DNA of 61,172 nt from NCBI GenBank assembly GCA_009923495.1, contig RFTJ01000006.1, positions 1-61,172 of the forward strand, in the 5' to 3' direction. Source of the stretch: Actinomycetota bacterium (lineage in GTDB: Bacteria; Actinomycetota; Actinomycetes; S36-B12; UBA5976). The notes beneath the pieces were generated by a model, which saw nothing but the letters and a program-made list of their open reading frames with translations, ran no database searches and was not told the DNA's origin. Position numbers and translations under genes: made by a program. Positions 1,608-16,343 of the stretch are shown in pieces (within the stretch, counting starts at the first letter, position 1; each line of letters starts with the position of its first letter).

Positions 1608-3185
1608 CTAAGCTTCACCACTTTCTGGAGTTTCTGGGAACGAATAAATCTGTGCATTGTGTTCTTGTACCTGTTCGCTTATTGGATCAGATGCACCAAA
1701 CACTTGATCATAGGTATTCCTACTATCCTCATGGGCTGCCATAGCTGCGATTCGAGTATCGGGCTCAATTACAGACTCCTTACCCAATTCCTCGGCTAAA
1801 TCTGCCCTGCCAGTTTCGAGGTAATAGGCCATGGCCTTATGGAAAGCTTGGTTTGCCCGGCGCGGATCTGACTCTTTCAGGAGCCGTGCGTGCACTTCAT
1901 GCAGGATTGCTCTGCTCTCGGCTGTTGCTCCGGATGTGCTGACTAGATGCAGTCCTTGAGTGCAAGTGGCAAGAGCGCTCTCGCGTTCATTCAACATCAA
2001 AAGCGCCTTTGCTTGGTAAGCATGGCGAACAACCTCACTCACACACCAGGGCATTGTCTCGGACTCAATTTTTTCTAACAGAGCGATAATCACTTCTGGC
2101 TCTTTATTGCTAATCAATGAATCTAAATACATTGGGAGCATTCGATGCCGCTCGCTATCCAGATTTTTGCGCATACTCGCTGCTTCGTAAGCAATCGCAA
2201 AGTGACAGCTTGCTAGTTCAAAACGTCCGTTATTTAGTGCCAAAAAGCCAAGTCCAACATTTGCCCGGGTCTTTTCGCGTAAACGATTGGGATACATCTC
2301 GATCAGAGTGATGGCGTGTTCAAGATGCTCGCGAGCCTTGCGCGGGTTGCGGTCTAGTTCGGCCATACCTAGCTCAGTGATAACGATTAACTGCATTTTA
2401 GAGTCATTGCGCTCGTAATAAACTTTGCGAGCACCTTCCAAGTACGAAACCGCCTCTGGAATCGCATTATTGAGCGCAAGGACTTCACCCATGAGTGCCT
2501 TGGCATCCACTTCACAGTTTCGACATGAACAGGTTTTACCAATTGCAAGAGCTTTTTCCGCAAATTCAAAAGCTTTTTCCACATCACCAATTGCCACATA
2601 GGCATTGGTTATGTTGAAGTGCGCATTATAAATTTGGTGCGGGGCTTCGGCAGAGATGGCATTTTCGAGAGCCCGCTCGTAAGCCCTAATAGCTTTGTCA
2701 TATTGACCAAGGCGCATGTATGCATCGGCCTTATCTTGAGCAGACATTGCCACACCGCGTTGTTCGTCAATTGAATCAAAGATTTTTTCTGAGCTGTCGT
2801 AGTGTTTGGCCGCATTTTCATAATCCTGCAAGCGGTAATACGCATCGCCAATCCAGTTCTCACTCCAAGCTGTGTCGGAGTCACTTCCACACGAAACAGC
2901 AAAGTCAGCCGCCCGACCGTAGGAATCAATTGCGCCGGAATATTCTTTTAACGCCATTTGCGAGTGTCCAATTAGTTGATTGGAGATAGAAATCTCGCGG
3001 ACGGCATCAATCCGCGTGAAAATCTCAAGGGCTTGTTCGGCCATTGCCATAGCGGTGTTGTGTTCGCCTTCGTGGGAACGGCGATGATGGAGGCTTATGA
3101 GTATTTGGCCCTTCTCAAAATCCGAAGTTTCGTGGTAGCGATCCCATAATTCGTCATCGGACATTTCGCTGTAGTTGTCGCTCAT
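1608..3185 (-). CDS. Tetratricopeptide-repeat protein
   Basis: The product is a soluble protein of about 525 residues made almost wholly of helix pairs with the TPR pattern (for example AMAEQALEIFTRI, DKAIRAYERALENA and AFEFAEKALAIG). The ATG at 3185 was chosen because GGAGG lies 6 nt upstream; an in-frame ATG four codons earlier has no such site. TPR arrays bind partner proteins. An unusual CSCRNC cluster sits near residue 220, within one helix pair, and could bind metal or form disulfides. There is no DNA-binding domain or signal peptide. It precedes, on the same strand, an ECF-like sigma gene some 230 nt upstream, and may act in the same regulatory cluster. Confidence 0.75.
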   Translation of the reverse strand: MSDNYSEMSDDELWDRYHETSDFEKGQILISLHHRRSHEGEHNTAMAMAEQALEIFTRIDAVREISISNQLIGHSQMALKEYSGAIDSYGRAADFAVSCGSDSDTAWSENWIGDAYYRLQDYENAAKHYDSSEKIFDSIDEQRGVAMSAQDKADAYMRLGQYDKAIRAYERALENAISAEAPHQIYNAHFNITNAYVAIGDVEKAFEFAEKALAIGKTCSCRNCEVDAKALMGEVLALNNAIPEAVSYLEGARKVYYERNDSKMQLIVITELGMAELDRNPRKAREHLEHAITLIEMYPNRLREKTRANVGLGFLALNNGRFELASCHFAIAYEAASMRKNLDSERHRMLPMYLDSLISNKEPEVIIALLEKIESETMPWCVSEVVRHAYQAKALLMLNERESALATCTQGLHLVSTSGATAESRAILHEVHARLLKESDPRRANQAFHKAMAYYLETGRADLAEELGKESVIEPDTRIAAMAAHEDSRNTYDQVFGASDPISEQVQEHNAQIYSFPETPESGEA

Positions 3186-3414
3186 GGCGGCCTCCATCTG
3201 TCATTGTTGTCATCAGGCAACCGAGCCAGAGAATCTGGCGGGAGTGACTAACTTACTCCTGGGGTATGACAAAAGCACGCTCAGATGACGTTGCGCGTTT
3301 CGCCGTTAGTGAACCAAAACCCTAAGGTAAATCTTTACCCTCGAAACTTGCGGATTACCCCTAATTCGGCAGCCTGGATGCCAATCTGCCAGGAAATGGA
3401 AATAACATCTGGAC

Positions 3415-4098
3415 TCAATCAAACTCGCCAAATAACGCCCGGTCCGATGCGAACCGTTTGCGCAGATTGTTCTTAATACGGCTAATTGTTTGGGATACCG
3501 AGCGGGCAGATGCGTAACCATAGATTTCAGCCAAATCGTCCAAGGGAACGCCTTCTAGGTAATCAATAAAGAGCTCACGATGGCTCTGCGGAACCTCGCT
3601 CAAAATATGTGCGACCACTGAATTTGAGGCAAGTTCGATCGACAATTCCTGCGGCTTCATCACCAAGATAGGCGCGTCAAAAATGGTGCGAACTGTCTGC
3701 CAATCTTCAGCGCCAGGTTCAGGTAGGCCATGCCATGACTGATTTTCTCGTTTGCGCTTCCGGTAAAGGTCAATGACTCGATTTATCACCGCAATTCGGA
3801 CATAAGCCTTCCAGTGGCGAACTTGCAGGTTTTCTCGGTGCAATCTTTTGACTACGTATTGCACGATATCTTCGGCATCTGAGCGAAGCGCCTTTGACTG
3901 ACGGACACATTTTCTGGTGTATTCATAAACCTCTTGCCAGTCATCAATAACGCCAGTTGGTTCGGCTTTGGATTCAAAATAGATTTCCTGAGCTTCCTGC
4001 CAGAGATCATACGATTCCAGCTCTGCATCACCCAAATCTGGAAACTGCAAGTTGAGCTCATTTTGGTCAATTTGGTCGTTGTCGCGCTCAGCTGTCAT
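3415..4098 (-). CDS. ECF-type sigma-factor-like regulator (paralogue A)
   Basis: The product has 227 residues. The middle (residues about 75-120, DAEDIVQYVVKRLHRE through VINRVIDLYRKRKRE) fits sigma region 2, and residues about 170-220 (LDDLAEIYGYASARSVSQT and a basic tail) fit the region 4 helix-turn-helix. The first 60 residues are acidic and are not part of the usual family. Its recognition helix closely matches that of the protein encoded at 6703-7263. No anti-sigma gene adjoins it. It is divergent from the deacetylase gene. A TAGCAT hexamer ends 6 nt before the ATG, suggesting a leaderless mRNA. A non-sigma DNA-binding protein is the alternative. Confidence 0.65.
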   Translation of the reverse strand: MTAERDNDQIDQNELNLQFPDLGDAELESYDLWQEAQEIYFESKAEPTGVIDDWQEVYEYTRKCVRQSKALRSDAEDIVQYVVKRLHRENLQVRHWKAYVRIAVINRVIDLYRKRKRENQSWHGLPEPGAEDWQTVRTIFDAPILVMKPQELSIELASNSVVAHILSEVPQSHRELFIDYLEGVPLDDLAEIYGYASARSVSQTISRIKNNLRKRFASDRALFGEFD

Positions 4099-4104
4099 TT
4101 CACA

Positions 4105-4110
4105 ATGCTA
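4105..4110 (-). promoter_or_regulatory. Leaderless-type -10 box (TAGCAT)
   Basis: On the minus strand TAGCAT ends 6 nt before the ATG of the sigma-like gene, and no Shine-Dalgarno sequence is present. Confidence 0.4.
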
Positions 4111-4145
4111 CTTTGGGCGCTTAGATTCCCGCGAAAAACCATTAT

Positions 4146-4183
4146 TTGCAGGGCTGGAGAAAACTTTTTACGCAATGTTGACA
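4146..4183 (+). promoter_or_regulatory. Operator-like half-site and -35 box before the deacetylase gene
   Basis: TTTACGCAA (4167-4175) is identical to one arm of the perfect inverted repeat at 10765-10794. TTGC at 4146-4149 keeps the outer bases of the opposite arm at exactly the same spacing. A perfect -35 hexamer TTGACA follows at 4178-4183; the -10 is not clear. Control by the same regulator is an inference. Confidence 0.4.
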
Positions 4184-4246
4184 TGAGGGCGTTCCCATTC
4201 GTCTCTACTTGTGTGGAGGAAAAATCTGCCACAGAAAAGGAGAATC

Positions 4247-5266
4247 ATGACCGAACAAATTAGCCCGAAGGACACCCCAGATGTGGTTATTGTGCACAGC
4301 CCAGAATACGAAAACTGGGTTTTTGATGAAATACATCCAACGCAGGGTCGCCGATTTATCAATGGCTACAACGAAATTATGAACCGCCTTACGAGTAGCA
4401 AGGTGCTTACTGTCGAGCCGCGCCAAGCCACTCGAAGCGAGCTGGCATTAGTACACACACAGGATTACATTAGCGAGGTCCTTGATGATCATTCATGTCA
4501 CGAGTGGACAGGTGAGCGCCCAGATTTGTCAGAATTAGCCAGCACCTTTGTTGGCGGCACATTGACCGCGCTGAATTATTTGCTTGAGGGAAAATCTCCA
4601 TTAGCTGTTCATTTGCCGGGTGCAAAGCACCATGCCCAGAAGGATCATTCGTCGGGTTTCTGCGTTTTTGCCGACTTCGCTATTGCGGCCAAAATCGCCG
4701 TAGCACGAGGATACAAAGTCGCTATCTTCGACTACGACGCACATCACGGGGATGGTACAGAAAATTTGTGTGCATCAGACCCGAATATCTTGACCTATTC
4801 GGTTCATGAAAAGGGCCTTTTCCCACGAACTGGCAACAGTAACGACCCCGCTTGTCATGTTTACAATTGTCCATTGAGTGTTGATGAACGGAATGCAGAA
4901 TTCAGCAACGGACGATTCAATTTCCGCCACGACGAAGCACTCGTTAAGGCGGCATTGGAGTTTGCTGAGCTTGCTTCGGCATTTGGCGCAGATATAATTT
5001 TCATTGCCGCTGGCGCGGACGGACACTACGATGATCCCCTAAGTCACTTGCAGTACTACAGCGGAATCCTGATTAAAGTTTTTGATTCAATCTTCAGCCG
5101 CGATTCATTAGCTGCACTTCCGATGCTGATCGGCGGCGCTGGCGGATATCGCCCTGACGATGCAACGCCAGAAATGTGGGCCGAGTCTGTCTATTGTGCA
5201 GATTCAGTTCGACCCAGAACTATTACTGCGGCCATGGGAGCCCGCCTGGCAGGTGATAATGCCTAA
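4247..5266 (+). CDS. Histone-deacetylase-fold zinc hydrolase (AcuC/HDAC superfamily)
   Basis: The product has 339 residues, starting at the ATG preceded by AAAAGGAGAATC. It has the full active-site set of the arginase/deacetylase superfamily: tandem His at 128-129 (PGAKHHA), the DYDAHHGDGT motif with likely zinc ligands D164 and H166, the GADGHYDDP motif with the third ligand D258, and GGAGGY with the catalytic Tyr301. It should remove an acyl or amide group from a small molecule or a protein lysine; the substrate cannot be told from sequence. The next gene overlaps its stop by 8 nt, so the two are co-translated. An operator-like box upstream links it to the ARPP-1/Nudix locus. Confidence 0.85.
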   Translation: MTEQISPKDTPDVVIVHSPEYENWVFDEIHPTQGRRFINGYNEIMNRLTSSKVLTVEPRQATRSELALVHTQDYISEVLDDHSCHEWTGERPDLSELASTFVGGTLTALNYLLEGKSPLAVHLPGAKHHAQKDHSSGFCVFADFAIAAKIAVARGYKVAIFDYDAHHGDGTENLCASDPNILTYSVHEKGLFPRTGNSNDPACHVYNCPLSVDERNAEFSNGRFNFRHDEALVKAALEFAELASAFGADIIFIAAGADGHYDDPLSHLQYYSGILIKVFDSIFSRDSLAALPMLIGGAGGYRPDDATPEMWAESVYCADSVRPRTITAAMGARLAGDNA

Positions 5267-5897
5267 ATTACTGCCAGATGAAGTTCCGGATTGCACAGAT
5301 CAAACCCCACAGCAGGTTGCCGAATTGGCTCAGTACCTTGCGCCATATGAGCAGGAACTGATGTTGATGCGCAGTCTGGTTGCTCAGGACCTGACCACTC
5401 CAATTCGGATACTCGAACTGTTGGCGCATGATCCGAAACGGATTGTGCGCCACAGCGTGGCTCACAATCCCATGGCAACTGAAGCAATCGCCGACATCGC
5501 CATGCGGCAAATGAGCACTGCGGCCATACCCCAGGAAGGCCACGCTTGGAAGCAGATGCGTTACCAGTACAAGAGCCTTCCATTAGAAAGGTTGCTTGCG
5601 CTGTTCGACTACAAATCGGTAATTCCGTTTTATCCTGCCCGTTATCGACCGGCGATAATTCGAGCATTACCAAAAGGAACCGTAATTCCAGATTGGAATA
5701 TGAACGAGCTGGTTGTGTCCGGTCCGACGCGGGTGCACTTGGCGTTGCTAAAACGCGTCGACTTGATCCAAACAGAACGAGATTGGTGGACCATTTGCCA
5801 GGCGGCCGATCCGGAGGTTCGTCAAGCGATCCAAGACGCTCCCGATGTGCCCGAAAAGTGGAAACGGTTTGCCCGTCAGCTCGGTGGACTCTTTTAG
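5259..5897 (+). CDS. HEAT/LRV-like repeat protein coupled to the deacetylase
   Basis: The product has 212 residues, from an ATG inside the end of the deacetylase gene preceded by AGGTGA. The pattern IRILELLAHDPKRIVRHSVA followed by HNPMATEAI is the leucine-rich-variant/HEAT type, in which short helix pairs carry conserved VR..VA.NP positions. A second such unit lies at the C-terminus (DPEVRQAI). No enzyme motif or membrane segment is visible. The overlap suggests a protein that binds or steers the deacetylase. I do not recognise a named family for the whole protein. Confidence 0.65.
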   Translation: MPKLLPDEVPDCTDQTPQQVAELAQYLAPYEQELMLMRSLVAQDLTTPIRILELLAHDPKRIVRHSVAHNPMATEAIADIAMRQMSTAAIPQEGHAWKQMRYQYKSLPLERLLALFDYKSVIPFYPARYRPAIIRALPKGTVIPDWNMNELVVSGPTRVHLALLKRVDLIQTERDWWTICQAADPEVRQAIQDAPDVPEKWKRFARQLGGLF

Positions 5898-6248
5898 CAA
5901 CACGCTAAAGGCTGGCGGGAATAAAAATTGCAGCGGGCTTGTTGTGAGGATTCGAATAATTTAGGACCAATTTGCGATGTATCCAATTTAATTTCGCTGT
6001 GGGCTTGCATTGGAACAAAAAGAAGAGTAAAAAGGTAGTCCTAACTTAATTCGAACAGATGTTCTAATCGAATCCCAACCGCGACAAGGAGGCGCAAAGT
6101 ATGAAAAACCTTGAAAAATCAAGCAATATTTTGTGCCGCACGAGGGTGGGATACGTGTCATAGTCTGCAGTTTTCCCAGCAAACGTATGTGAACCTAAAC
6201 GAAGTAAGACCCAGAAAATTATTGATGAACCAGAAAGAAGGATGAAAA
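5898..6248 (+). other. Intergenic stretch before the whiB-like gene
   Basis: This 351-nt stretch holds the 20-codon frame at 6101-6163 and presumably the promoter of the WhiB-like gene. I see no convincing terminator or RNA element. Its length is unusual for this compact region, which favours a regulated 5' leader. Confidence 0.35.
6101..6163 (+). CDS. Possible 20-residue leader peptide upstream of whiB-like gene
   Basis: An ATG with a near-perfect ribosome binding site (AAGGAGG, 8 nt before) opens a 20-codon frame ending in TAG. The peptide is basic, with one Cys, and resembles no known leader. Its end lies 85 nt before the WhiB-like start, so it could be a translated upstream frame controlling that gene. 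Chance is possible, but the binding site is better than those of most genes nearby. Confidence 0.3.
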   Translation: MKNLEKSSNILCRTRVGYVS

Positions 6249-6719
6249 ATGCAGTCTGAACACAACGAACTATTAGCCGAACTTGCCGCCATGAAGTGGC
6301 CTACTTTTTTGTCAGAAGGGGATTGCATCGGCAAAGATCCCACACTTTTTGACGACGAAGATCACAAGAAGTCGGTCATGGCCAAAAGGATATGTGACAA
6401 GTGTCCGGTAAAGGCGCAGTGCGCTCAGTGGGGTATCGACAATGAAGATGCCGGCATTTGGGGCGGCCTTGACGACAAAGATCGGGCCAAAGCACGCCGG
6501 GGCAAGCGCAAGTTTGTCACCATGGAAAAGCGCCGAGAAAACCTCGAGTGGCTGCAGGATATTTGGAGTGACAAGCCTGCTGCTGAGCTAGCTGCTAAGT
6601 ATGGTAAAACTGAGCGCACAATTTATCGGTGGCGCGACAAAGAGCGTAAACGTGTTCGTAATCTTGGCTGGTCGCCTTTTAGACCGAGTGGCTTTAATAA
6701 ACCTAACTCAGACGATTAA
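6249..6719 (+). CDS. WhiB-family iron-sulfur regulator with C-terminal helix-turn-helix
   Basis: The product has 156 residues. C26 plus C49, C52 and C58 (CDKCPVKAQC) form the WhiB cysteine set that holds a [4Fe-4S] cluster, and GIWGG at 69-73 is the family's beta-turn. Basic residues follow, as in the usual DNA-contact tail. Beyond that, residues about 95-145 (AAELAAKYGKTERTIYRWRD) form a second, homeodomain-like helix-turn-helix that ordinary WhiB proteins of 80-120 residues lack. WhiB proteins usually bind the principal sigma factor and respond to redox or NO; the extra domain may give it its own DNA target. Its end overlaps the convergent sigma-like gene by 17 nt. Confidence 0.85.
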   Translation: MQSEHNELLAELAAMKWPTFLSEGDCIGKDPTLFDDEDHKKSVMAKRICDKCPVKAQCAQWGIDNEDAGIWGGLDDKDRAKARRGKRKFVTMEKRRENLEWLQDIWSDKPAAELAAKYGKTERTIYRWRDKERKRVRNLGWSPFRPSGFNKPNSDD

Positions 6720-7263
6720 ATTGCCAGTCGCTCACGTAGGGCCGAATTTTTTTGCGAACCCTTGACAAGGTTTGAGCAACCGAAGCAGCGCTTGCATAGC
6801 CAAGTAAGTCGGCAATTTCCTGATTACTGCATTGATCCATAGCAGCCATCAGAACCGCCCATTCTTTGACACTAACTTGATCTTCTAAATCTCGAGCAAG
6901 TTGGCGAAGGAATGCGTATTCACTGGTGCGCTGTGCTTGGACGTAGCCAGCGATAATCTCGTCTAACGCGCCGTCTGGACCACTGGGATTTTCCTTGACT
7001 GGGATTTGCGCTTGCAGTATCCGATCTCGTTCAAATTTCAGGCGGGTGCGGTCAATTATGCAGTTGAGAATGGCGGCTGAGATCCAGCCTCGCTCATTCT
7101 CAGGCCAGGTGGGTCGGGCAACGAGTTTGGCCATAACTTCGGCGGCAGCTTCCTGAGCCCAATCATGGTTACGAGTCTGGTGAAGGGCTCGGTCGTAAGC
7201 ATAGGAAAGCAACATTTTCAGGTGCTCAGGATCCTTGTGGTCGCTAATTGGTTGGTCGCTCAT
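6703..7263 (-). CDS. ECF-type sigma-factor-like regulator (paralogue B)
   Basis: The product has 186 residues. The start at 7263 was chosen because a CACAAT hexamer ends 7 nt before it; an in-frame start 35 codons upstream lacks a ribosome site. Residues about 30-80 fit sigma region 2 (HDWAQEAAAEVMAKLVARP, then ISAAILNCIIDRTRLKFERD). Residues about 130-180 fit region 4 (CSNQEIADLLGYASAASVAQ). The GYASA.SV.QT.SR recognition segment is shared with the product of 3415-4098, so both may read similar promoters. There is no anti-sigma partner. It faces away from the phosphatase operon and may drive it. Confidence 0.65.
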   Translation of the reverse strand: MSDQPISDHKDPEHLKMLLSYAYDRALHQTRNHDWAQEAAAEVMAKLVARPTWPENERGWISAAILNCIIDRTRLKFERDRILQAQIPVKENPSGPDGALDEIIAGYVQAQRTSEYAFLRQLARDLEDQVSVKEWAVLMAAMDQCSNQEIADLLGYASAASVAQTLSRVRKKIRPYVSDWQFNRLS

Positions 7264-7270
7264 AGTGGTA

Positions 7271-7276
7271 ATTGTG
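7271..7276 (-). promoter_or_regulatory. Leaderless-type -10 box (CACAAT)
   Basis: CACAAT on the minus strand ends 7 nt before the chosen ATG of paralogue B and supports that start. Confidence 0.35.
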
Positions 7277-7405
7277 CCAGTACGAACTGACAAAAGCCCA
7301 TAAAAATCAGGAATTTTGGCAATTCTTGAAAAATCTTTAACTTTTTTGTTGATAACTGCCCGAGTCAATCGTCTAAGTAATTAGAACCCTTAAAGGAGGA
7401 ACCCG

Positions 7406-7948
7406 ATGAGCGAAGATTCATCAGATAACTTAATAGCACCCCGTTGGCACGAAGAGTCTGCTTACCCAAGTGAACTGTTCAATGAAATTCTGCCTGGCCT
7501 TTTCATGGGCGGAACTGCAGACGACGACACAGTTGATTTTGCCGTCTATGCACCAAATCTTGATTACTGTGCACCGTTTGACGCAGTTGTCACTCTCTAT
7601 GCCTGGGCTAATCCATTTAGCTGGGGAGTCGAAGAGCTGCGTTACGGTTTCGGTGATGGTGACATGGATCGAGTTGATGTTGCCCGAATCGTACGCCTTG
7701 CAAATTGGGCGTTTGAGCGTTGGTGCGAAGGCGACCGAGTGCTCATCCGTTGTCAGGCTGGCCTAAATCGTTCGGGCTTGATTACTGCGCTAACGCTAAT
7801 CCTTGCTGGGCATGAGCCGGAAGAGGCAATTGCATTAATCCGGGCAAAGCGTTCACGAAACGCATTGTTTAATCAGTCCTTTGTGAACTGGCTGATCGAT
7901 GAAGCACCGAAATATCGAAAGGGATTAGGCAGCCCCTCAGCTGCCTAA
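7406..7948 (+). CDS. Dual-specificity-like phosphatase, first of tandem pair
   Basis: The product has 180 residues with a strong ribosome site (AAAGGAGG). RCQAGLNRSG carries the C-x5-R phosphate loop of cysteine phosphatases, with C116 and R122; the usual His before the Cys is Arg. An Asp in the GFGDGD segment (D84 or D86) could be the general acid. An N-terminal LFMGGTADDDT segment is shared with the next gene, marking the two as paralogues in one subfamily. The substrate may be a phosphoprotein or a phosphorylated nucleotide product. Enzymes of the rhodanese-phosphatase superfamily are known to occur beside ARPP-1 genes, and an ARPP-1-like gene lies 2.9 kb downstream. Confidence 0.75.
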   Translation: MSEDSSDNLIAPRWHEESAYPSELFNEILPGLFMGGTADDDTVDFAVYAPNLDYCAPFDAVVTLYAWANPFSWGVEELRYGFGDGDMDRVDVARIVRLANWAFERWCEGDRVLIRCQAGLNRSGLITALTLILAGHEPEEAIALIRAKRSRNALFNQSFVNWLIDEAPKYRKGLGSPSAA

Positions 7949-7994
7949 TCCGTCTATGTAGTGACCCAAACGCCATGAACAGAAAAGGAGAAAT

Positions 7995-8519
7995 ATGACA
8001 GCAAAAAGTGAAGGACTTGGCTCATATGCCGAGTTGATGCCCAAAGAGGTTTGGACTGAGGTGTATCCAAACCTCTGGATGGGTGGAACCGATGATGACG
8101 ACACAATAGGTCGCTCGGAGTTACTCGAACCGCGCATCACCAAAAGGAGCTTTGACACAGTCGTAACACTGCATGCGTGGAGCAATCCGGTCGACTGGTT
8201 TGTCCGCGAGATTCGTCAGCCATTTCAAGATGGCGAAGTAAGTGAGTTCAATGAAGAAGATTTAAAGTTTCTCGTGAGACTGATCTGCTTCGAACTAGAG
8301 CAAGGAAAGAACGTCCTTGTTCGCTGCCTGTCTGGATTGAATCGTTCGGGACTGCTAATCACGATGGTCTTAATGAATTATGGCTATTCAGCACAAGAAA
8401 CAATTGACCATCTTCGTCAAACTCGAAGCCCATTGGTGCTTTGCAATAAAGATTATGTTCAGTGGTTGTTGGCCAAAGATGTAGAAACTAGCAACAAGTC
8501 GGAGCATACAAATGTCTGA
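7995..8519 (+). CDS. Dual-specificity-like phosphatase, second of tandem pair
   Basis: The product has 174 residues, with AAAAGGAG before the ATG. The phosphate loop is RCLSGLNRSG, with C111 and R117, and D79 in the FQDGEV segment matches the likely general acid of the paralogue. It shares LWMGGTDDDDT and the VVTLHAW.NP..W core with the first phosphatase. The pair has diverged considerably outside the active site, so the substrates may differ. Its 3' end overlaps the next gene by 8 nt, which implies coupled translation of the phosphatase and the unknown protein. Confidence 0.75.
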   Translation: MTAKSEGLGSYAELMPKEVWTEVYPNLWMGGTDDDDTIGRSELLEPRITKRSFDTVVTLHAWSNPVDWFVREIRQPFQDGEVSEFNEEDLKFLVRLICFELEQGKNVLVRCLSGLNRSGLLITMVLMNYGYSAQETIDHLRQTRSPLVLCNKDYVQWLLAKDVETSNKSEHTNV

Positions 8520-9342
8520 GAACTATGGAATATCCAGCAAGGAAAACTACTCCTCGCTCCTAACTCGAAATTACGGTTGGCGCAAACAAACCGAGAATTA
8601 CACGTCAACTGATGCAATCATTGACTTTGGTTTACAGCTGCAGCAATGTGGTCTTCAAATGCCGATCGTTCCGGCTCATTTACGGCAACGAGTTTTAGCA
8701 AATACAAAATGGTTTGGAATTTCGACGGAACACTGCGCTAATCCCATGGATACCTACCTAATGCCAGGAAGAAGTTGGGTACCCCAGATAGCTGAACTGA
8801 CGCCCTACGACTTCATGGTTTTCGCACATGCTGGTCATGGCCTCAATTCCTATGCCATGGGTCTTGTTGCTCGGATCGGCTGTTTTACGATCTTTCAACA
8901 AAGTAACTGGGGCGGGGTGTATCAGAACCCTGAACTTCAGCGAGAGCGGCTGGCTGCCCAGATTGAAGTCTGGAATGAAATGAGTGAGTTCTTGGCCAAC
9001 ATAAAAACTGCGAGTGAATACGAGTACTTAATCTCGTTCTCGCCATTTAGAGGAGTTGCCAATATTTCTCGTCGCAGATGGCAATCACCGTGGACCTTGG
9101 AAACATCAGATGAGTCGACATTGGAAAAGAATCGAGACTGGGAAATCGACATCGATTTAACTCGAGATTCAGTCGATGCCCAGCGTTGCCTTGACTGGCT
9201 TGCTGGAAAGCCCGACCACAAATACACGCGCGATATGTTCATTCAAGAAATTGGCCGCGAATATCTTTACCGGCTAACCGTTGCGAACGCTAAAGTGCTC
9301 GCTTTAGTACAGGACAGAGCACAAAAATCGCGCTCGAGCTAA
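8512..9342 (+). CDS. Unknown protein coupled to phosphatase
   Basis: The product has 276 soluble residues that I do not recognise. The ATG lies within the last codons of the phosphatase gene. The N-terminus is rich in Asn and Tyr (NYG repeated at residues 4-6 and 20-22, also NYS and NYT). The middle has HAGHGLNSYAMGL, a Gly/His segment that could line an active site, followed by a Trp- and Gly-rich stretch (QQSNWGGVY). The C-terminus is helical and charged. The neighbours suggest a partner or substrate enzyme of the phosphatases; a new nucleotide- or ADP-ribose-handling enzyme is possible but unproven. Confidence 0.6.
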   Translation: MSENYGISSKENYSSLLTRNYGWRKQTENYTSTDAIIDFGLQLQQCGLQMPIVPAHLRQRVLANTKWFGISTEHCANPMDTYLMPGRSWVPQIAELTPYDFMVFAHAGHGLNSYAMGLVARIGCFTIFQQSNWGGVYQNPELQRERLAAQIEVWNEMSEFLANIKTASEYEYLISFSPFRGVANISRRRWQSPWTLETSDESTLEKNRDWEIDIDLTRDSVDAQRCLDWLAGKPDHKYTRDMFIQEIGREYLYRLTVANAKVLALVQDRAQKSRSS

Positions 9343-9354
9343 CTGATCGAGGGC

Positions 9355-9395
9355 AAAAAATGGGCGCGGCCAACGAACTACAGTTCGTCGCGCCC
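9355..9395 (-). terminator. Intrinsic terminator, minus strand
   Basis: GGGCGC (9362-9367) pairs with GCGCCC (9390-9395) and ACGAACT (9373-9379) with AGTTCGT (9382-9388). On the minus strand the stem is followed by a run of six T (9355-9360). The stop codon of the YbjN-like gene lies inside the hairpin. It also lies just after the convergent unknown gene. Confidence 0.75.
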
Positions 9396-9758
9396 TGTTA
9401 ATTTGCGCTCCATTTTGTCTGCATGTTCCATCACTAGGCGCAGTGGGGCAGTCAATTCATTTTCATCCAAATCAGCGATTGGGAATGAATGGATTAGACC
9501 ATAAAAGTTATCGTCTATCCAGACGCCGAAGGGAGTCTCACTAGCTTCAATCAACACGGTCTCGGGAACAACTTCGTCTAACTGGCAAATTCTAGAAAAA
9601 ATCGAGATCCAGGGATCATTGGGCGAATCAATGTGCTTGACTACAACGGTTTGCTTACGACTATAGTTATCGAGTTCCAAAATTAATGAGTTTGCTGTTT
9701 TGCCCGTGACTGCATAAGCAGATTGCAGCTCGGTAGAAACTGTTTCCCAGTTCGCCAT
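9378..9758 (-). CDS. YbjN/type III chaperone-like protein
   Basis: The product has 126 acidic residues with AGGAGAACAA before the ATG. The alternation of a helix, an antiparallel sheet (SLILELDNYSRKQTVVVKH; ETPFGVWIDDNFYGLIHSFP) and a C-terminal helix resembles the YbjN / type III secretion chaperone fold common in actinobacteria, which binds peptides. The match is from pattern only. It is transcribed alone between the phosphatase operon and the Nudix-type regulator and has its own terminator. Confidence 0.4.
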   Translation of the reverse strand: MANWETVSTELQSAYAVTGKTANSLILELDNYSRKQTVVVKHIDSPNDPWISIFSRICQLDEVVPETVLIEASETPFGVWIDDNFYGLIHSFPIADLDENELTAPLRLVMEHADKMERKLTGRDEL

Positions 9759-9847
9759 TTGTTCTCCTAGAAAGCGTAGTTAGTTAAGTCTAGAGCAAAC
9801 CCATTCACTAATTCAGGCAACCTTGCACACTGCGTAAGTCGGAGTAC

Positions 9848-10744
9848 TTAGAGAAAATTGTCCACATCAATCATTCGGGCAGCAAGAAATCTGCTTGTTC
9901 TAACTTTGCTTTCGAAGCGCTCCTTGCGCTGGTACATCATCGGTGGCTTACCAACAGATCCTTCGGCTCGATGACCAGTTGCCTTTAGGTTGGGAAGCAT
10001 CTCCCGGCGGAAAGTATCTGGCGCAATCTCAGTGTCTTGAATCGCCTCGTGTACCTCTCGGAGTTGGCTCAATGTGAACTCGTGATCCAGAATTCGGCCA
10101 GGATCGGGTAGCAGTGAATATCTGCGGCGTAGTTCCTTGACTGCTTCGCGCAAAATTTGTCGCTGTTCGTACGGCAAGTCATCTTGGTCATCTGGAAATT
10201 CATAATGATCTCCACTTATAAAAATTGCACCAACATTTGGGTTGTCTAAAGCACGTTGTGCCACCCGCGCAGGAACTGTAGCCATGTGTGCAACAGAAAG
10301 CACCCAACCTCGCGGATCGCGATCTGGTTCATCGAACACTTTGATTTGGTCCAATTCCAAATCGCCAATGCCGATTTTTAGGTTCACGGCATCATGAGCA
10401 GTTTTTTCCAAAGTCTCATGCTCTCTGAGCATTCGACCAGGCAGGGCCCATTTGCCTGCTTCGTGTCCTATGCCACGTAAGTGCGCAAGGGCTACTAATG
10501 CGGGGTGTCCTTGGTACTCAATTACAGACAAAACTGCGACATCGGCAGCAACACTGGGTCGAGGATATGCTGCCAAATCAGATGGCGCCCAGCCTAACTC
10601 CGGCCGGTCCTTTAGTAGTGCGAGGTAGTGCCTTAGCTGAGTCAAGTTTGGCTGCGCTTGGAAATCGGATTTTCTTAACAGGTTGGAGAATTTTTCAACA
10701 ATAACAGTAAATGAATCTTCATTTTCTTCAGTATTTTCAGACAT
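9848..10744 (-). CDS. NrtR-like transcription regulator with degenerate Nudix domain
   Basis: The product has 298 residues. Residues about 65-200 form a Nudix fold, but the box starting PGRMLREHE (102-110) has lost its catalytic acids: where REUxEE is expected the sequence reads D118-A-V-N-L-K123. The C-terminal part (about 215-275, FTLSQLREVHEAIQDTEIAP, then a basic wing) is the winged helix of NrtR regulators. NrtR proteins bind ADP-ribose or related nucleotides without cutting them and then leave DNA, controlling NAD genes. A perfect inverted repeat lies in the promoter it shares with the divergent ARPP-1-like gene. A TAATGT hexamer 6 nt before the ATG indicates a leaderless mRNA. NrtR-type function is well supported; the ligand is inferred. 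Confidence 0.8.
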   Translation of the reverse strand: MSENTEENEDSFTVIVEKFSNLLRKSDFQAQPNLTQLRHYLALLKDRPELGWAPSDLAAYPRPSVAADVAVLSVIEYQGHPALVALAHLRGIGHEAGKWALPGRMLREHETLEKTAHDAVNLKIGIGDLELDQIKVFDEPDRDPRGWVLSVAHMATVPARVAQRALDNPNVGAIFISGDHYEFPDDQDDLPYEQRQILREAVKELRRRYSLLPDPGRILDHEFTLSQLREVHEAIQDTEIAPDTFRREMLPNLKATGHRAEGSVGKPPMMYQRKERFESKVRTSRFLAARMIDVDNFL

Positions 10745-10750
10745 ATTTCA

Positions 10751-10756
10751 ACATTA
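10751..10756 (-). promoter_or_regulatory. Leaderless-type -10 box of the NrtR-like gene
   Basis: TAATGT on the minus strand ends 6 nt before the ATG. The operator arms lie between this box and the expected -35 position, so bound protein would block its own promoter. Confidence 0.45.
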
Positions 10757-10794
10757 ACGCATTTTTGCGTAAACGTATGCTACAATTTACGCAA
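10757..10794. promoter_or_regulatory. Perfect inverted-repeat operator in the divergent promoter
   Basis: TTGCGTAAA (10765-10773) and TTTACGCAA (10786-10794) form a perfect 9-bp inverted repeat with a 12-nt spacer, so the arms are two helical turns (21 bp) apart. A further half-site ACGCA (10757-10761) pairs with TGCGT (10766-10770), giving an overlapping second palindrome. An extended -10 for the ARPP-1-like gene, TGCTACAAT (10778-10786), fills the spacer. Binding by a dimeric regulator, most simply the NrtR-like neighbour, would shut both genes. Confidence 0.7.
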
Positions 10795-10825
10795 CATTGA
10801 GTTAATTACCCGAAAGGTAGGTCAC

Positions 10826-11785
10826 ATGCCCACATTAACTACGAGGTTCCATGTTGGAGCCGGAACCCATGTTGGTCCCATCTCAGTATTTCCGGTCTGG
10901 TCAGAAAACCGAACTGATGAAATCTACACCACCGCTGCGCCAAATGGCCTAGAGATTGGTGAACTCGAATCAGCCAGCGTTGAGACTTTGCTAGCAAAGA
11001 ATGCTTCAACAACTAGCGTCCTTATCCCTGAAGGTACGATCTTGCATGGGGGATTGCAGACCCGAGTTCTAACTTCTGATGTGCTCTTAGCGCCCGGTCA
11101 GAACGATCTACTTGATGTGCGCTGTGTTGAGCAAGGCAGATGGGGTAGCAAGGTACCAACTGCATTCGATGGCCGAGCGCCAATTACTGTCGTTGGCGCA
11201 CTTCGCGGCTTACGTCGTGGTGCACGCACTAACTTTGCTGATCAGCATGATGTTTGGCAGCGGGTAAATTTCTATGAAAAGAGCTATGGCACTCGTCGCA
11301 CTTCCTCACTTAACAGCATTCGAAATCTAAAATCGGATGACTTGCTAGTTATCAACGATGAATTCGAATCTTCGAAGGTCCAGAACAACTCGCTAATGGC
11401 AAACACGCTCAAGAAAGATTTACAAAAACTTTCAGCTAATCCGTTGCCAGGCCAAAATGGACTAATCATCGGACTGTCGGGACAACCAGTGTTGTTAGAA
11501 ATATTCAGCAGTGAAGCTGCTTTCCGCGAGCAATTAGCAGGAATTCTCGATGCAGTGGCAATTGATGCCCCGCATGCAAGCGGTGAAAGTACACCGGCTC
11601 GTCGAGCAGTACGATTTGCCGATTACATTATGGATCAGCCACTGGCAGAATCAGCCCATGTTCCGAATCTGCTCATTGGCAGCAGTGAACGAATCGACAT
11701 GCGCAGCCTTGTTGGAGCCAGCGAACGCAATCTGCTTCACACGGCAGTTGTAAATGCTCGCCACGAGTTAATTCTGGCTGCATAA
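10826..11785 (+). CDS. ARPP-1-like protein
   Basis: The product has 319 soluble residues, with GAAAGGTAGG before the ATG. The N-terminal part (FHVGAGTHVGPISVFPVW; then IPEGTILHGGLQTRVLTSD) matches my memory of the ARPP-1 domain, named for genes found with ADP-ribosylglycohydrolases and rhodanese-phosphatase enzymes. The biochemical role of that domain is not established. A basic segment near residue 130 (RGLRRGARTN) and a C-terminal alpha/beta part follow. It is divergent from the NrtR-like regulator and under the operator described; a terminator follows. Two phosphatases nearby fit the family's known company, but no glycohydrolase is present in the window. Confidence 0.65.
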   Translation: MPTLTTRFHVGAGTHVGPISVFPVWSENRTDEIYTTAAPNGLEIGELESASVETLLAKNASTTSVLIPEGTILHGGLQTRVLTSDVLLAPGQNDLLDVRCVEQGRWGSKVPTAFDGRAPITVVGALRGLRRGARTNFADQHDVWQRVNFYEKSYGTRRTSSLNSIRNLKSDDLLVINDEFESSKVQNNSLMANTLKKDLQKLSANPLPGQNGLIIGLSGQPVLLEIFSSEAAFREQLAGILDAVAIDAPHASGESTPARRAVRFADYIMDQPLAESAHVPNLLIGSSERIDMRSLVGASERNLLHTAVVNARHELILAA

Positions 11786-11794
11786 GAATTTGAC

Positions 11795-11821
11795 GGTGCC
11801 CTTGCATAAAGCAGGGGCACC
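11795..11821 (+). terminator. Hairpin after ARPP-1-like gene
   Basis: GGTGCCC (11795-11801) pairs with GGGCACC (11815-11821), with an inner TGC/GCA pair. The tail is A/T-rich (AACATTTATTTT) rather than a pure T run, so it may only partly end transcription. Confidence 0.55.
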
Positions 11822-11866
11822 AACATTTATTTTCAATTTAAACTTCTAGATTTAGGACGGATAAGT

Positions 11867-12205
11867 ATGTGGGTATTTACGCAAAATGGATTTCTATCAG
11901 CAGTAAGAACTGCAAATGGCTCACCAGAATTCAAGGTAAGGTCACGCGATCGGCAGGCTCTGCAGGGATTGGCTCAATATGCGGAAGTTGAGATCATTGC
12001 AACGCCGTACGCCGACTACCCGTATCGGGTAATCGTTGATGAGTTACTGCTTGGGGGCTACTTATTAAACGAATTGGCCACAGCTGATTACACAAACTAC
12101 AAAGACCGAGTTCAGGTATTGCGTGGGAAACAGTATGCCCAAGCCTGTGCCAAAGTCTGGTCTACTATGCACGATGTTGAGGATGAGAAAGCCCGAACAA
12201 TTTAA
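11867..12205 (+). CDS. Unknown small protein following ARPP-1-like gene
   Basis: The product has 112 residues, with AGGACGG before the ATG. It opens MWVFTQNGFLSAVR, a strand-turn-strand start that I recall from unnamed actinobacterial proteins. No catalytic motif or membrane segment is visible. The sequence YADYPYRVIVD in the middle suggests a small alpha/beta fold. It probably shares the ARPP-1 transcript by read-through. Its end lies 14 nt from the convergent membrane-protein gene. Confidence 0.55.
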   Translation: MWVFTQNGFLSAVRTANGSPEFKVRSRDRQALQGLAQYAEVEIIATPYADYPYRVIVDELLLGGYLLNELATADYTNYKDRVQVLRGKQYAQACAKVWSTMHDVEDEKARTI

Positions 12206-12219
12206 AGTCTTGATATCGG

Positions 12220-12954
12220 TTAGTCCGCGGCACTAGCGCTTTCATGTCGCCGATACTGTTCATCGCGATGCTCACGACGGAAAAGTTCAATTTCGTAGCG
12301 TAATTTTTCAAGTTCCAAATCTTTGCGCTCGACATCTAACTCAAATGCAGTGCGCCGGTCAGCGATAAAGTCCATGAGTGCGAACAGAACTCCTGAAATT
12401 ACGAATGTTAAGTGAATACCGATTCGCCACTTTTCAACTTCACCATCAATGTTTTCGGCATTCATAAAATCATGGAGCAATTCAATCACCGAGATAGCAA
12501 CCAAAGAGCCAATCAACTTAATTTTCAGTCCCGAATAGTCAACTTTTCCCATCCAGGCTGGCCGGTCAACCGAAGACTGAGCAACGTTTATCTTGGAGAC
12601 AAAGTTTTCATATCCGCTAAAGATGATGATTACCACTAGGTTTCCGAGCAACGTAATATCTAGAAGTTGTAGCACTTCAAGCGTCGCTCCGTGCAGATCC
12701 ATTTCTGGCAAGTCTCTGACAGTTTCGTAAAAAGTCGAGACGAATTTGTAGACAACGAAAAATAGGCTTGCCGCTAAGCCTAGATAAAGAGGGAGTAAAA
12801 GCCAGCGCGCGCCAAACAAGGCCCGTTCGCTGAGTAATTCAAAAGCATCACGGACTCCGCGCTCTGCCTTTTCGACATTCTTCTCAACTTTGAGCAGGTC
12901 AGCTTCGAGTTCTTCAGGGATGGTCTTATTTGCCGAATCTTTTTGGTTGGCCAT
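12220..12954 (-). CDS. YqhA-family (UPF0114) membrane protein with charged extensions
   Basis: The product has 244 residues. Three to four membrane helices lie between residues about 50 and 200. The motifs RWLLLPLYLGLAASL, FSGYENFVSK and HLTFVISGVLFALMD match the YqhA/UPF0114 family, whose E. coli member has about 164 residues. Here a charged N-terminal helix (about 40 residues, Glu/Lys-rich) and a charged C-terminal coiled coil (DVERKDLELEKLRYEIELF) are added. The function of the family is not firmly known. The start follows GAGGTT. Confidence 0.75.
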   Translation of the reverse strand: MANQKDSANKTIPEELEADLLKVEKNVEKAERGVRDAFELLSERALFGARWLLLPLYLGLAASLFFVVYKFVSTFYETVRDLPEMDLHGATLEVLQLLDITLLGNLVVIIIFSGYENFVSKINVAQSSVDRPAWMGKVDYSGLKIKLIGSLVAISVIELLHDFMNAENIDGEVEKWRIGIHLTFVISGVLFALMDFIADRRTAFELDVERKDLELEKLRYEIELFRREHRDEQYRRHESASAAD

Positions 12955-13192
12955 TTTTTTAACCTCATTTTCGTTACTTACTGGAATTTTTGCAGAGAAT
13001 TGCGCAAAGTTTGGGATTGATAGCTACTTCTGCCGCAGATTTTCATTCGCCAAATTCAGCCCTATCCCAATAGGAATCAAGCGAGTATTCTGAACAAAGA
13101 TAATCAAGTTGTAAATTTCAATGCGTTTATGGCTATTTGTCAGCGGGTAATTGTAAGTTAGCAACATCCATCAGCTTGAAATTTGGAGCGTC

Positions 13193-14848: not shown

Positions 14849-14952
14849 CCCCATTTGCTGAAAAACCCCTAAAGGTGGCACACTTATCTAGCACCTCGGT
14901 TCACGCCAGTTAAGAATTTTGGGCGACCCGAGGGCACGAAAAGGAGATAGTA

Positions 14953-15162
14953 ATGAAGGCCGACATCCATCCAGAATATGTTTTGACCAAAGTCACATGT
15001 TCATGTGGTAACTCATTTGAAACTCGCAGCACTGCAAAAACTGGGCAAATCCATGCAGACGTGTGCAGTGAATGCCATCCGTTCTACACCGGCAAGCAGA
15101 AGATTCTTGATACCGGTGGTCGTGTTGCTAAATTCGAAAAGCGTTTCGGCAAGCAGGCTTAG
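14953..15162 (+). CDS. rpmE: Ribosomal protein L31, zinc-binding form
   Basis: The product has 69 residues, with AAAAGGAG before the ATG. The CSCG and CSEC cysteine pairs show the zinc-containing L31 (C+ form) of the large ribosomal subunit. [21 protein letters not shown] is the family signature. It precedes prfA as in other actinobacteria, but a terminator separates the two. Confidence 0.95.
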
Positions 15163-15171
15163 CTTTATATC

Positions 15172-15215
15172 AAGGTGTCTGCGTTGTCCTTTGGGCGACG
15201 CTGGCACCTTTTTAT
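15172..15215 (+). terminator. Intrinsic terminator after rpmE
   Basis: AAGGTGTCTGCGT pairs with ACGCTGGCACCTT with one mismatch and one wobble, followed by TTTTTATTTG. It lies 10 nt past the rpmE stop. Confidence 0.75.
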
Positions 15216-15260
15216 TTGTCGCTAAATTTCCAGTCAAAATTCATAGGTTAGAAGGTCAAC

Positions 15261-16343
15261 ATGAGTCAAGATTTTGCTAAAGCACAGACTCTATCTATTG
15301 AGTATGCCGAGTTAGAGGCAAAGCTCAGTGACCCTGCCACTCATTCAGATCAGAACGAAGCTCGACGAATTGGCAAGCGCCATGCGGAACTGCGTCCGGT
15401 AGTAGCAAAGTACCGGGAATGGAAGCAGCTCTGTGAAGACGAGATCGTCGCTCGAGAAATGGGCACCGAAGACCCGGCCATGTTGGTTGAAGCCGATGAT
15501 CTTGCCAGAACTCGCGATGAGGCGGCCGAAAAATTGCAGGCATTACTAATTCCGCGCGATCCCCTTGATGGCAGTGACGTAATTCTAGAAATCAAAGCTG
15601 GCGCCGGTGGCGAAGAGTCCGCACTATTCGCTGGGGACTTGATGCGCATGTATTTGAAATACGCAGAAAAGCGTGGTTGGGCGACTCAAGTTCTTGAAGC
15701 TGAAGAATCTGACATGGGTGGCTACAAAGACATTGCCATAAGTGTAAAAGCTCGAGGCGTTGTGACACCTGAAGAAGCCCCATATGCAAACCTGAAATAT
15801 GAAGGTGGAGTACATCGGGTGCAGCGCGTTCCTGTTACTGAATCCCAGGGCCGAATTCATACCTCAGCGGCAGGCGTATTGGTGTTACCAGAAGCCGAAG
15901 AAATTGATGTTCAGATTCTTCCCAGCGATTTGCGCATTGATGTGTATCGCTCAAGTGGCCCAGGTGGCCAAAGCGTTAACACAACTGATTCAGCGGTGCG
16001 CATTACTCACGTACCGACTGGAGTAGTTGTCTCATGTCAAAACGAGAAGAGCCAATTGCAGAACAAAGAATCTGCGATGCGCATCCTTCGCGCTCGACTT
16101 TTGGCATTGGCAGAAGAAGAGGCTGCCGCTGCCGCTAGTGATGCTCGCAAGAGTCAAGTGCGAACTGTTGATAGATCGGAGCGAATTCGAACTTACAATT
16201 TCCCAGAGAACCGCCTGGCCGATCACCGAGTTGGCTTTAAAGCTAACAACCTAGACGCAGTGCTAGCCGGTGAATTAGATCCTGTTATTCAGGCGTGTAT
16301 TGAAGCTGACATGCAAGCCAAACTCAAAGACGTCGGCGCTTAA
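15261..16343 (+). CDS. prfA: Peptide chain release factor 1
   Basis: The product has 360 residues, the usual length. It reads UAA and UAG in the ribosomal A site and triggers peptide release. GPGGQSVN (about residue 235) is the catalytic GGQ motif, and PVT in the [14 protein letters not shown] segment fits the PxT anticodon tripeptide of RF1, separating it from RF2 (SPF). The downstream gene encodes the methyltransferase that modifies the GGQ glutamine, and the two form the conserved prfA-prmC pair. Confidence 0.96.

Follow-up and report, generated by a model that had tools for sequence, protein, structure and literature searches.

In a 61,172-nucleotide stretch of an Actinomycetota bacterium genome (GenBank assembly GCA_009923495.1, contig RFTJ01000006.1; hereafter the window), we identified a locus organized around an ARPP-1 gene and a divergently transcribed gene for an NrtR-type regulator. 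The locus is real, conserved and accessory. On balance, it probably derives, with loss of the ADP-ribosylglycohydrolase (ARG), from the predicted anti-ADP-ribosylation systems combining ARG, ARPP and NrtR. The window is one contig (number 6) of a draft genome of 1.45 Mb in 59 contigs, 97% complete, whose closest named relatives are uncultured actinobacterial metagenome-assembled genomes (MAGs), mostly from freshwater to judge by their record names. An earlier reading of the same DNA, made from the letters alone (the sequence-only reading), had listed seven open reading frames (ORFs), all of which are present, intact and correctly placed (Table 1). The two related Cys phosphatases (DSP1 and DSP2), the overlapping 276-residue protein (U276), the NrtR-type regulator with its degenerate Nudix domain, ARPP-1 and the 112-residue protein (U112) are borne out, and the histone deacetylase (HDAC)-fold enzyme and the fusion of WhiB to a helix-turn-helix (HTH) domain nearby are both real. 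One gene, U126, lies between U276 and the regulator and was missing from that list. Below, G numbers denote genomes and L numbers the ARPP or related loci examined.

ARPP-1 (also DUF6569, a name that our literature search did not return) retains the conserved residues Cys100, Gln78, Gln210 and Glu225, and no relative of it was found in viral contigs. Residues 62–271 of the regulator align with the NrtR structure PDB 3gz5. Its Nudix box, GRMLREHETLEKTAHDAVNLKIG, has lost the catalytic residues of the REUxEE motif, and an intact box, sought as a strict motif on whole ORFs, occurs in only 4 of 47 relatives; as judged from sequence, regulators of this group have commonly lost the Nudix catalytic residues. 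Against the NCBIfam equivalog for ADPR-responsive NtrR the regulator scores 55.7 bits, below the cut-off of 400, and it is a distant NrtR member rather than the named equivalog. It shares with the NrtR regulators of NAD metabolism (SoNrtR, 3gz5, and MsNrtR) the Nudix and winged-helix domains and a palindromic operator at its own promoter, and with MsNrtR also the degenerate catalytic box, despite which ADP-ribose releases MsNrtR from DNA. In contrast to those regulators, its target appears to be ARPP rather than NAD genes, and its predicted operator, TTWRCGCA-N4-TGCGYWAA, differs from the mycobacterial NrtR site, GTTTTCGA-N7-TCGAAAAC.

Two palindromes of this predicted motif occupy the promoter region between nrtR and ARPP. 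The motif is found in the divergent nrtR/ARPP promoters of Arthrobacter, Pseudonocardia, Salinibacterium, Klenkia and the Nocardioidaceae-group locus L052, among others, with the recurrences in other families being exact or carrying 1–2 mismatches. It is perfect in the same-genus genomes G428, G424 and G431, the counterpart of box 2 in G428 being an intact TTTACGCAACATTGCGCTAA; some other ARPP promoters lack it. A whole-genome scan with a query pattern that allowed A or C at one position returned mismatch-free sites only at these two places. Before the HDAC, DSP1, DSP2, WhiB and U112 genes, no site with fewer than four mismatches was found in the window or in the same-genus relatives checked. 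The HDAC and DSP1 genes each adjoin a divergent sigma-70-like gene; these two genes are mutually related and keep the same placement in G428 and G424, and a sigma-like gene also stands beside DSP–ARPP in G297. Because the operators are absent before HDAC and the phosphatases, and because HDAC and DSP1 adjoin sigma-like genes of their own, at least two regulatory units are likely; the single signalling locus of the sequence-only reading thus stands as a neighbourhood and is not shown to be co-regulated. Weaker sites were seen elsewhere: an operator-like site with 2 mismatches at window positions 12989–13008, upstream of a UPF0114 membrane protein gene (12220–12954), and two identical sites with 1 mismatch each, 86 bp apart, at G000:C1:92406-92511, which may be a direct repeat.

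We surveyed the neighbourhoods of 80 named ARPP loci, which are not independent of each other. NrtR lies within 3 kb of ARPP in 34 of them and ARG within 6 kb in 31, and by motif count 22 of the 33 ARG ORFs in ARPP loci carry a C-terminal Cys-x5-Arg phosphatase tail. The ARPP–NrtR pair directly adjoins ARG in many actinobacteria, and relatives of the window's order (G380–G385) have nrtR, ARPP and ARG in one block where contigs are long enough. With ARPP-1 and NrtR both matched by profile and the neighbourhood conserved, the link to ADP-ribose that had been proposed for the locus is supported. In four loci from other families (L047, L048, L050 and L055), a DUF4236-like sequence, recognized by eye, adjoins or is fused to ARPP.

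Working outward from ARPP, the survey arrives at a published system: Iyer et al. 2022 (PMC9503650, section 3.8) predicted ARG-centred systems by which hosts would counter viral ADP-ribosylation. Their core comprises ARG, a Nudix or WYL transcription factor and often a rhodanese-superfamily phosphatase; around it come chaperones (vWA, SseB, TY) and, variably, genes for ARPP, Macro, NADAR and nucleases (PMC9503650). The window locus shares with these systems the Nudix-HTH repressor, the rhodanese-superfamily phosphatase, ARPP and a patchy, modular occurrence with variable cassettes, and in the loci of its relatives vWA, HD-domain, Macro and nuclease-helicase genes also occur, in line with the published description. 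It differs in lacking ARG, the defining domain, in having two standalone RCx5R phosphatases where the published systems have an ARG-fused HCx5R phosphatase, and in adding the HDAC-fold enzyme, U112, the WhiB-HTH protein and the sigma-like genes. No peptide-binding chaperone (vWA, SseB or TY-Chap) was recognized among the window genes scanned, U126 and U276 matching nothing. HDAC, WhiB, sigma factor and N-formylglutamate amidohydrolase (FGase) are not named as partners in the text of that paper (PMC9503650). The claim that the combination had not been described therefore fails for the Nudix transcription factor, ARPP and rhodanese-phosphatase and, against the text of that paper, holds for HDAC and WhiB. 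The ADP-ribose reading is well founded and not new in kind; new here are the operators and their confinement to ARPP/NrtR, the recurrence of HDAC near ARPP, and the U112 family. ARPP-1 and the ARG-centred systems are both known as predictions, and we found no bench test of either in the literature.

The sequence-only reading had reported no glycohydrolase or macrodomain in the window, and this extends further: ARG (PF03747), Macro and KptA are all absent from the whole draft genome. ARG is likewise missing from G428, G431 and G424, the three other genomes of the genus with the locus, from G411, and from G032 (100% complete) and G004 (93%), both of which belong to another branch of ARPP without ARG. 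G405 falls in the window's ARPP clade and does have an ARG, on a contig separate from ARPP. Because the window's clade (support 97/84) nests in a mostly ARG-linked ARPP tree, loss of ARG appears more likely than a primitive state, and the number of losses is uncertain among draft genomes. Five MAG records (L067, L085, L128, L129 and L135) carry the title Bifidobacterium breve; these names look wrong, since the ARPP of L067 and L085 groups with uncultured relatives of the window's order.

The HDAC-fold enzyme retains in alignment the metal-site and Tyr motifs GAKHHA, DYDAHHGDG, GADGH and GGAGGY. It shares its fold, its metal ligands and the catalytic Tyr motif with the class II HDAC and acetylpolyamine-type deacylases. 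Of the 80 loci, 13 have an HDAC-fold gene no more than 7 kb from ARPP. At the genomic rate of about 1.2 copies per genome (31 matches in 25 genomes), we roughly estimate that chance would place one there in some 1% of loci. The ARPP-near enzymes form three groups in the tree, of which two contain no others, and these stand apart from AcuC-like enzymes; the window enzyme belongs to a KHHA-type clade, distinct from the AcuC-like HDACs that relatives carry elsewhere. In locus L121 the genes run contiguously as ARPP–ARG:phosphatase–HDAC–DSP.

U112 has 15 relatives in the examined loci. Its AlphaFold2 model is confident, with a predicted local distance difference test score (pLDDT) of 91, and a fold search returned no PDB match at E≤0.001. 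U112 adjoins ARPP in several lineages, and G457 has ARG, nrtR, ARPP and U112 together. An Aeromonas plasmid carries it as a fusion with NUDIX, next to ARG and a WYL regulator, and on a Sphaerotilus plasmid it lies beside Sir2, a MavL-type ADP-ribosylhydrolase, DSP and vWA. Both clusters resemble the window in joining U112 to ADP-ribose hydrolases and a transcription factor, the Sphaerotilus one (WYL-Sir2-MavL-DSP-U112-vWA) also to a phosphatase; they differ in being proteobacterial, in having WYL rather than NrtR, and in lacking ARPP. U112 also occurs in unrelated contexts, and its link to ADP-ribose systems is frequent, not exclusive. The Aeromonas fusion is locus L158, 6001–7185, on Aeromonas media pE31A, and in L080 a Macro domain gene (14873–15481) lies a few genes downstream of ARPP-vWA-U112-HDAC.

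Taken together, these features suggest how the locus might work, with all its enzyme functions proposed from sequence. By analogy with mycobacterial NrtR, the dead-Nudix regulator would repress nrtR and ARPP until bound by ADP-ribose or a related ligand. With its conserved Cys/Gln/Glu site, ARPP would then act on ADP-ribose, either released or still attached to protein, and the phosphatases may trim ribose or ADP-ribose products that carry phosphate. As a metal hydrolase, the HDAC-fold enzyme may replace or supplement the missing ARG by taking off an adduct, be it acyl or ADP-ribose. A role in conflict or stress would agree with the patchy presence of the locus and its changing cassettes. The earlier proposal that the phosphatases handle an ADP-ribose-derived phosphate can be kept as a possible general role on ADP-ribose or sugar phosphates; its more specific substrate, ADP-ribose-1''-phosphate, would be without its usual source, because KptA, like Macro and ARG, is absent from the genome. 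Such a variant separates the parts of the system, with sensor, ARPP and phosphatases present without a glycohydrolase, and the roles of ARPP and the R-P phosphatases therefore become testable independently of ARG. Two candidate components come with it, an HDAC-fold enzyme that recurs and the U112 family. The concrete operator sequence makes the regulator's ligand directly measurable.

Several observations weigh against derivation from an ARG system. With ARG, the defining enzyme, missing, the substrate chemistry is guesswork. No ADP-ribosyltransferase or sirtuin was found among the genes scanned at 1608–12954, the genome-wide search having been for KptA only, and 30 of the 80 ARPP loci have none of the tested partners, some on short contigs. 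About 3% of the genome may be unassembled, so that a canonical ARG system with dispersed genes might be hidden there, as the 59-contig draft and the separate contigs of ARPP and ARG in G405 would allow. We consider this very improbable, given that ARG is also missing from the three other locus-bearing same-genus genomes and G411, and from the separate clade of G032 and G004, and that assembled neighbours other than ARG occupy the slots around ARPP in G428 and G424. The confinement of the operators to nrtR/ARPP, away from HDAC and the phosphatases, also counts against one system, as does G421. In this same-genus genome, HDAC–DSP–DSP–WhiB–U112 is accompanied by an HD-domain gene and by genes that look vWA-like and NERD-like by eye (L153, C3:1016000-1032000); no nrtR or ARG occurs in that stretch and no ARPP was found in the genome, which means that the HDAC/DSP part can exist alone. 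A regulated NrtR-ARPP pair may thus have been inserted beside an independent HDAC-DSP-DSP-WhiB-U112 cluster, serving for example protein acetylation or phosphorylation signalling, and the sigma-like genes of HDAC and DSP1 would suit such neighbouring modules. We regard this as possible but rather unlikely, since several other lineages also have HDAC, DSP and U112 next to ARPP, in different gene orders, and L121 has ARPP-ARG-HDAC-DSP in a single run.

The regulator could also control NAD metabolism in the classical NrtR manner; ARPP and the phosphatases would then be enzymes of NAD turnover. Its NrtR_WHD domain and degenerate Nudix box, as in the ADP-ribose-released MsNrtR, would agree with this. 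However, the scan of genes around the locus recognized no NAD-synthesis gene, the genome's only near-perfect operator pair lies at nrtR/ARPP, and the operator is not of the mycobacterial type, which together make this account improbable. Within an ADP-ribose system, another eraser might have taken the place of ARG outright, the HDAC-fold enzyme or ARPP, partnered by U112, removing adducts of ADP-ribose or acyl-ADP-ribose. We consider this doubtful; if true, an arginase/HDAC-fold protein would represent a new kind of ADP-ribose-adduct hydrolase. Descent from the ARG/ARPP/NrtR systems, with ARG lost, is the reading we prefer.

Table 1. Genes and predicted operators of the locus, in window coordinates.
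Feature	Position	Strand	Evidence or remark
Sigma-70-like factor 1, divergent from HDAC	3415..4098	-	Pfam Sigma70_r2 E 0.002
HDAC-fold (class II-like) Zn hydrolase	4247..5266	+	Pfam Hist_deacetyl E 9e-49
LRV-like protein	5259..5897	+	Pfam LRV E 1e-3; start overlaps HDAC stop
WhiB-HTH fusion protein	6249..6719	+	Pfam Whib E 2e-15, HTH_28 E 5e-5
Sigma-70-like factor 2, divergent from DSP1	6703..7329	-	NCBIfam sigma70-ECF E 3e-8, below cut-off
DSP1, standalone rhodanese-phosphatase-superfamily Cys phosphatase	7406..7948	+	DSPc E 2e-6, below Pfam cut-off; loop RCQAGLNRSGL
DSP2, second Cys phosphatase	7995..8519	+	DSPc E 7e-11, above cut-off; loop RCLSGLNRSGL
U276, orphan	8512..9342	+	lineage-specific cassette; 8-nt overlap of its start with the DSP2 stop
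U126, second cassette gene between DSP2 and nrtR	9378..9758	-	no family match
NrtR-type regulator, degenerate Nudix sensor and winged helix	9848..10744	-	NrtR_WHD E 2e-10, above cut-off
Predicted operator box 1, TTAACGCATTTTTGCGTAAA	10754..10773		0 mismatches; palindrome conserved in divergent NrtR/ARPP promoters
Predicted operator box 2, TTTACGCAACATTGAGTTAA	10786..10805		centre 32 bp, or about 3 helical turns, from that of box 1
ARPP-1 (DUF6569)	10826..11785	+	PF20208 E 5e-43
U112, small conserved alpha/beta protein	11867..12205	+	112 aa, no Pfam family

Both phosphatases have an intact Cx5R loop, in which the His that opens the HCx5R P-loop is replaced by Arg. They share the unusual loop R-C-x-x-G-x-N-R-S-G, and the DSP1 and DSP2 types are about 40% identical. 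The reading frames are preserved in orthologues of the same genus, as is gene order for the most part; synonymous divergence (dS) between the window and G428, the closest relative, is saturated, so that the ratio of nonsynonymous to synonymous divergence (dN/dS) is indicative only. The locus is patchy, with ARPP in 4 of 23 same-genus genomes, and the slot between DSP and nrtR varies among the window, G428, G431 and G424. In the window it holds U276 and U126. U276 has no relative outside its own genome among 162 order and 396 phylum genomes and none among phages or viral contigs; its single plasmid match is weak and partial (24% identity, E 4e-3), and its AlphaFold2 model (pLDDT 36) is unusable. 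U126 is missing from the relatives' loci and has no Pfam, PHROG or plasmid match; it could conceivably be a TY-chaperone, for which no profile match was obtained. U276 is missing in G428, where DSP2 and nrtR abut. Its slot is taken in G431 by a 276-residue FGase, identified by Pfam match, and in G424 by an FGase-like protein that resembles the G431 copy by eye. An identity of U276 itself as an FGase is out, as the G431 protein matches that Pfam family and U276 does not.

Upstream, the LRV-like protein likely starts at 5259, inside an ORF that opens at 5160, and a relative of it adjoins HDAC in G431 and G424. The WhiB-HTH fusion is conserved in G428, G431, G424 and G421.

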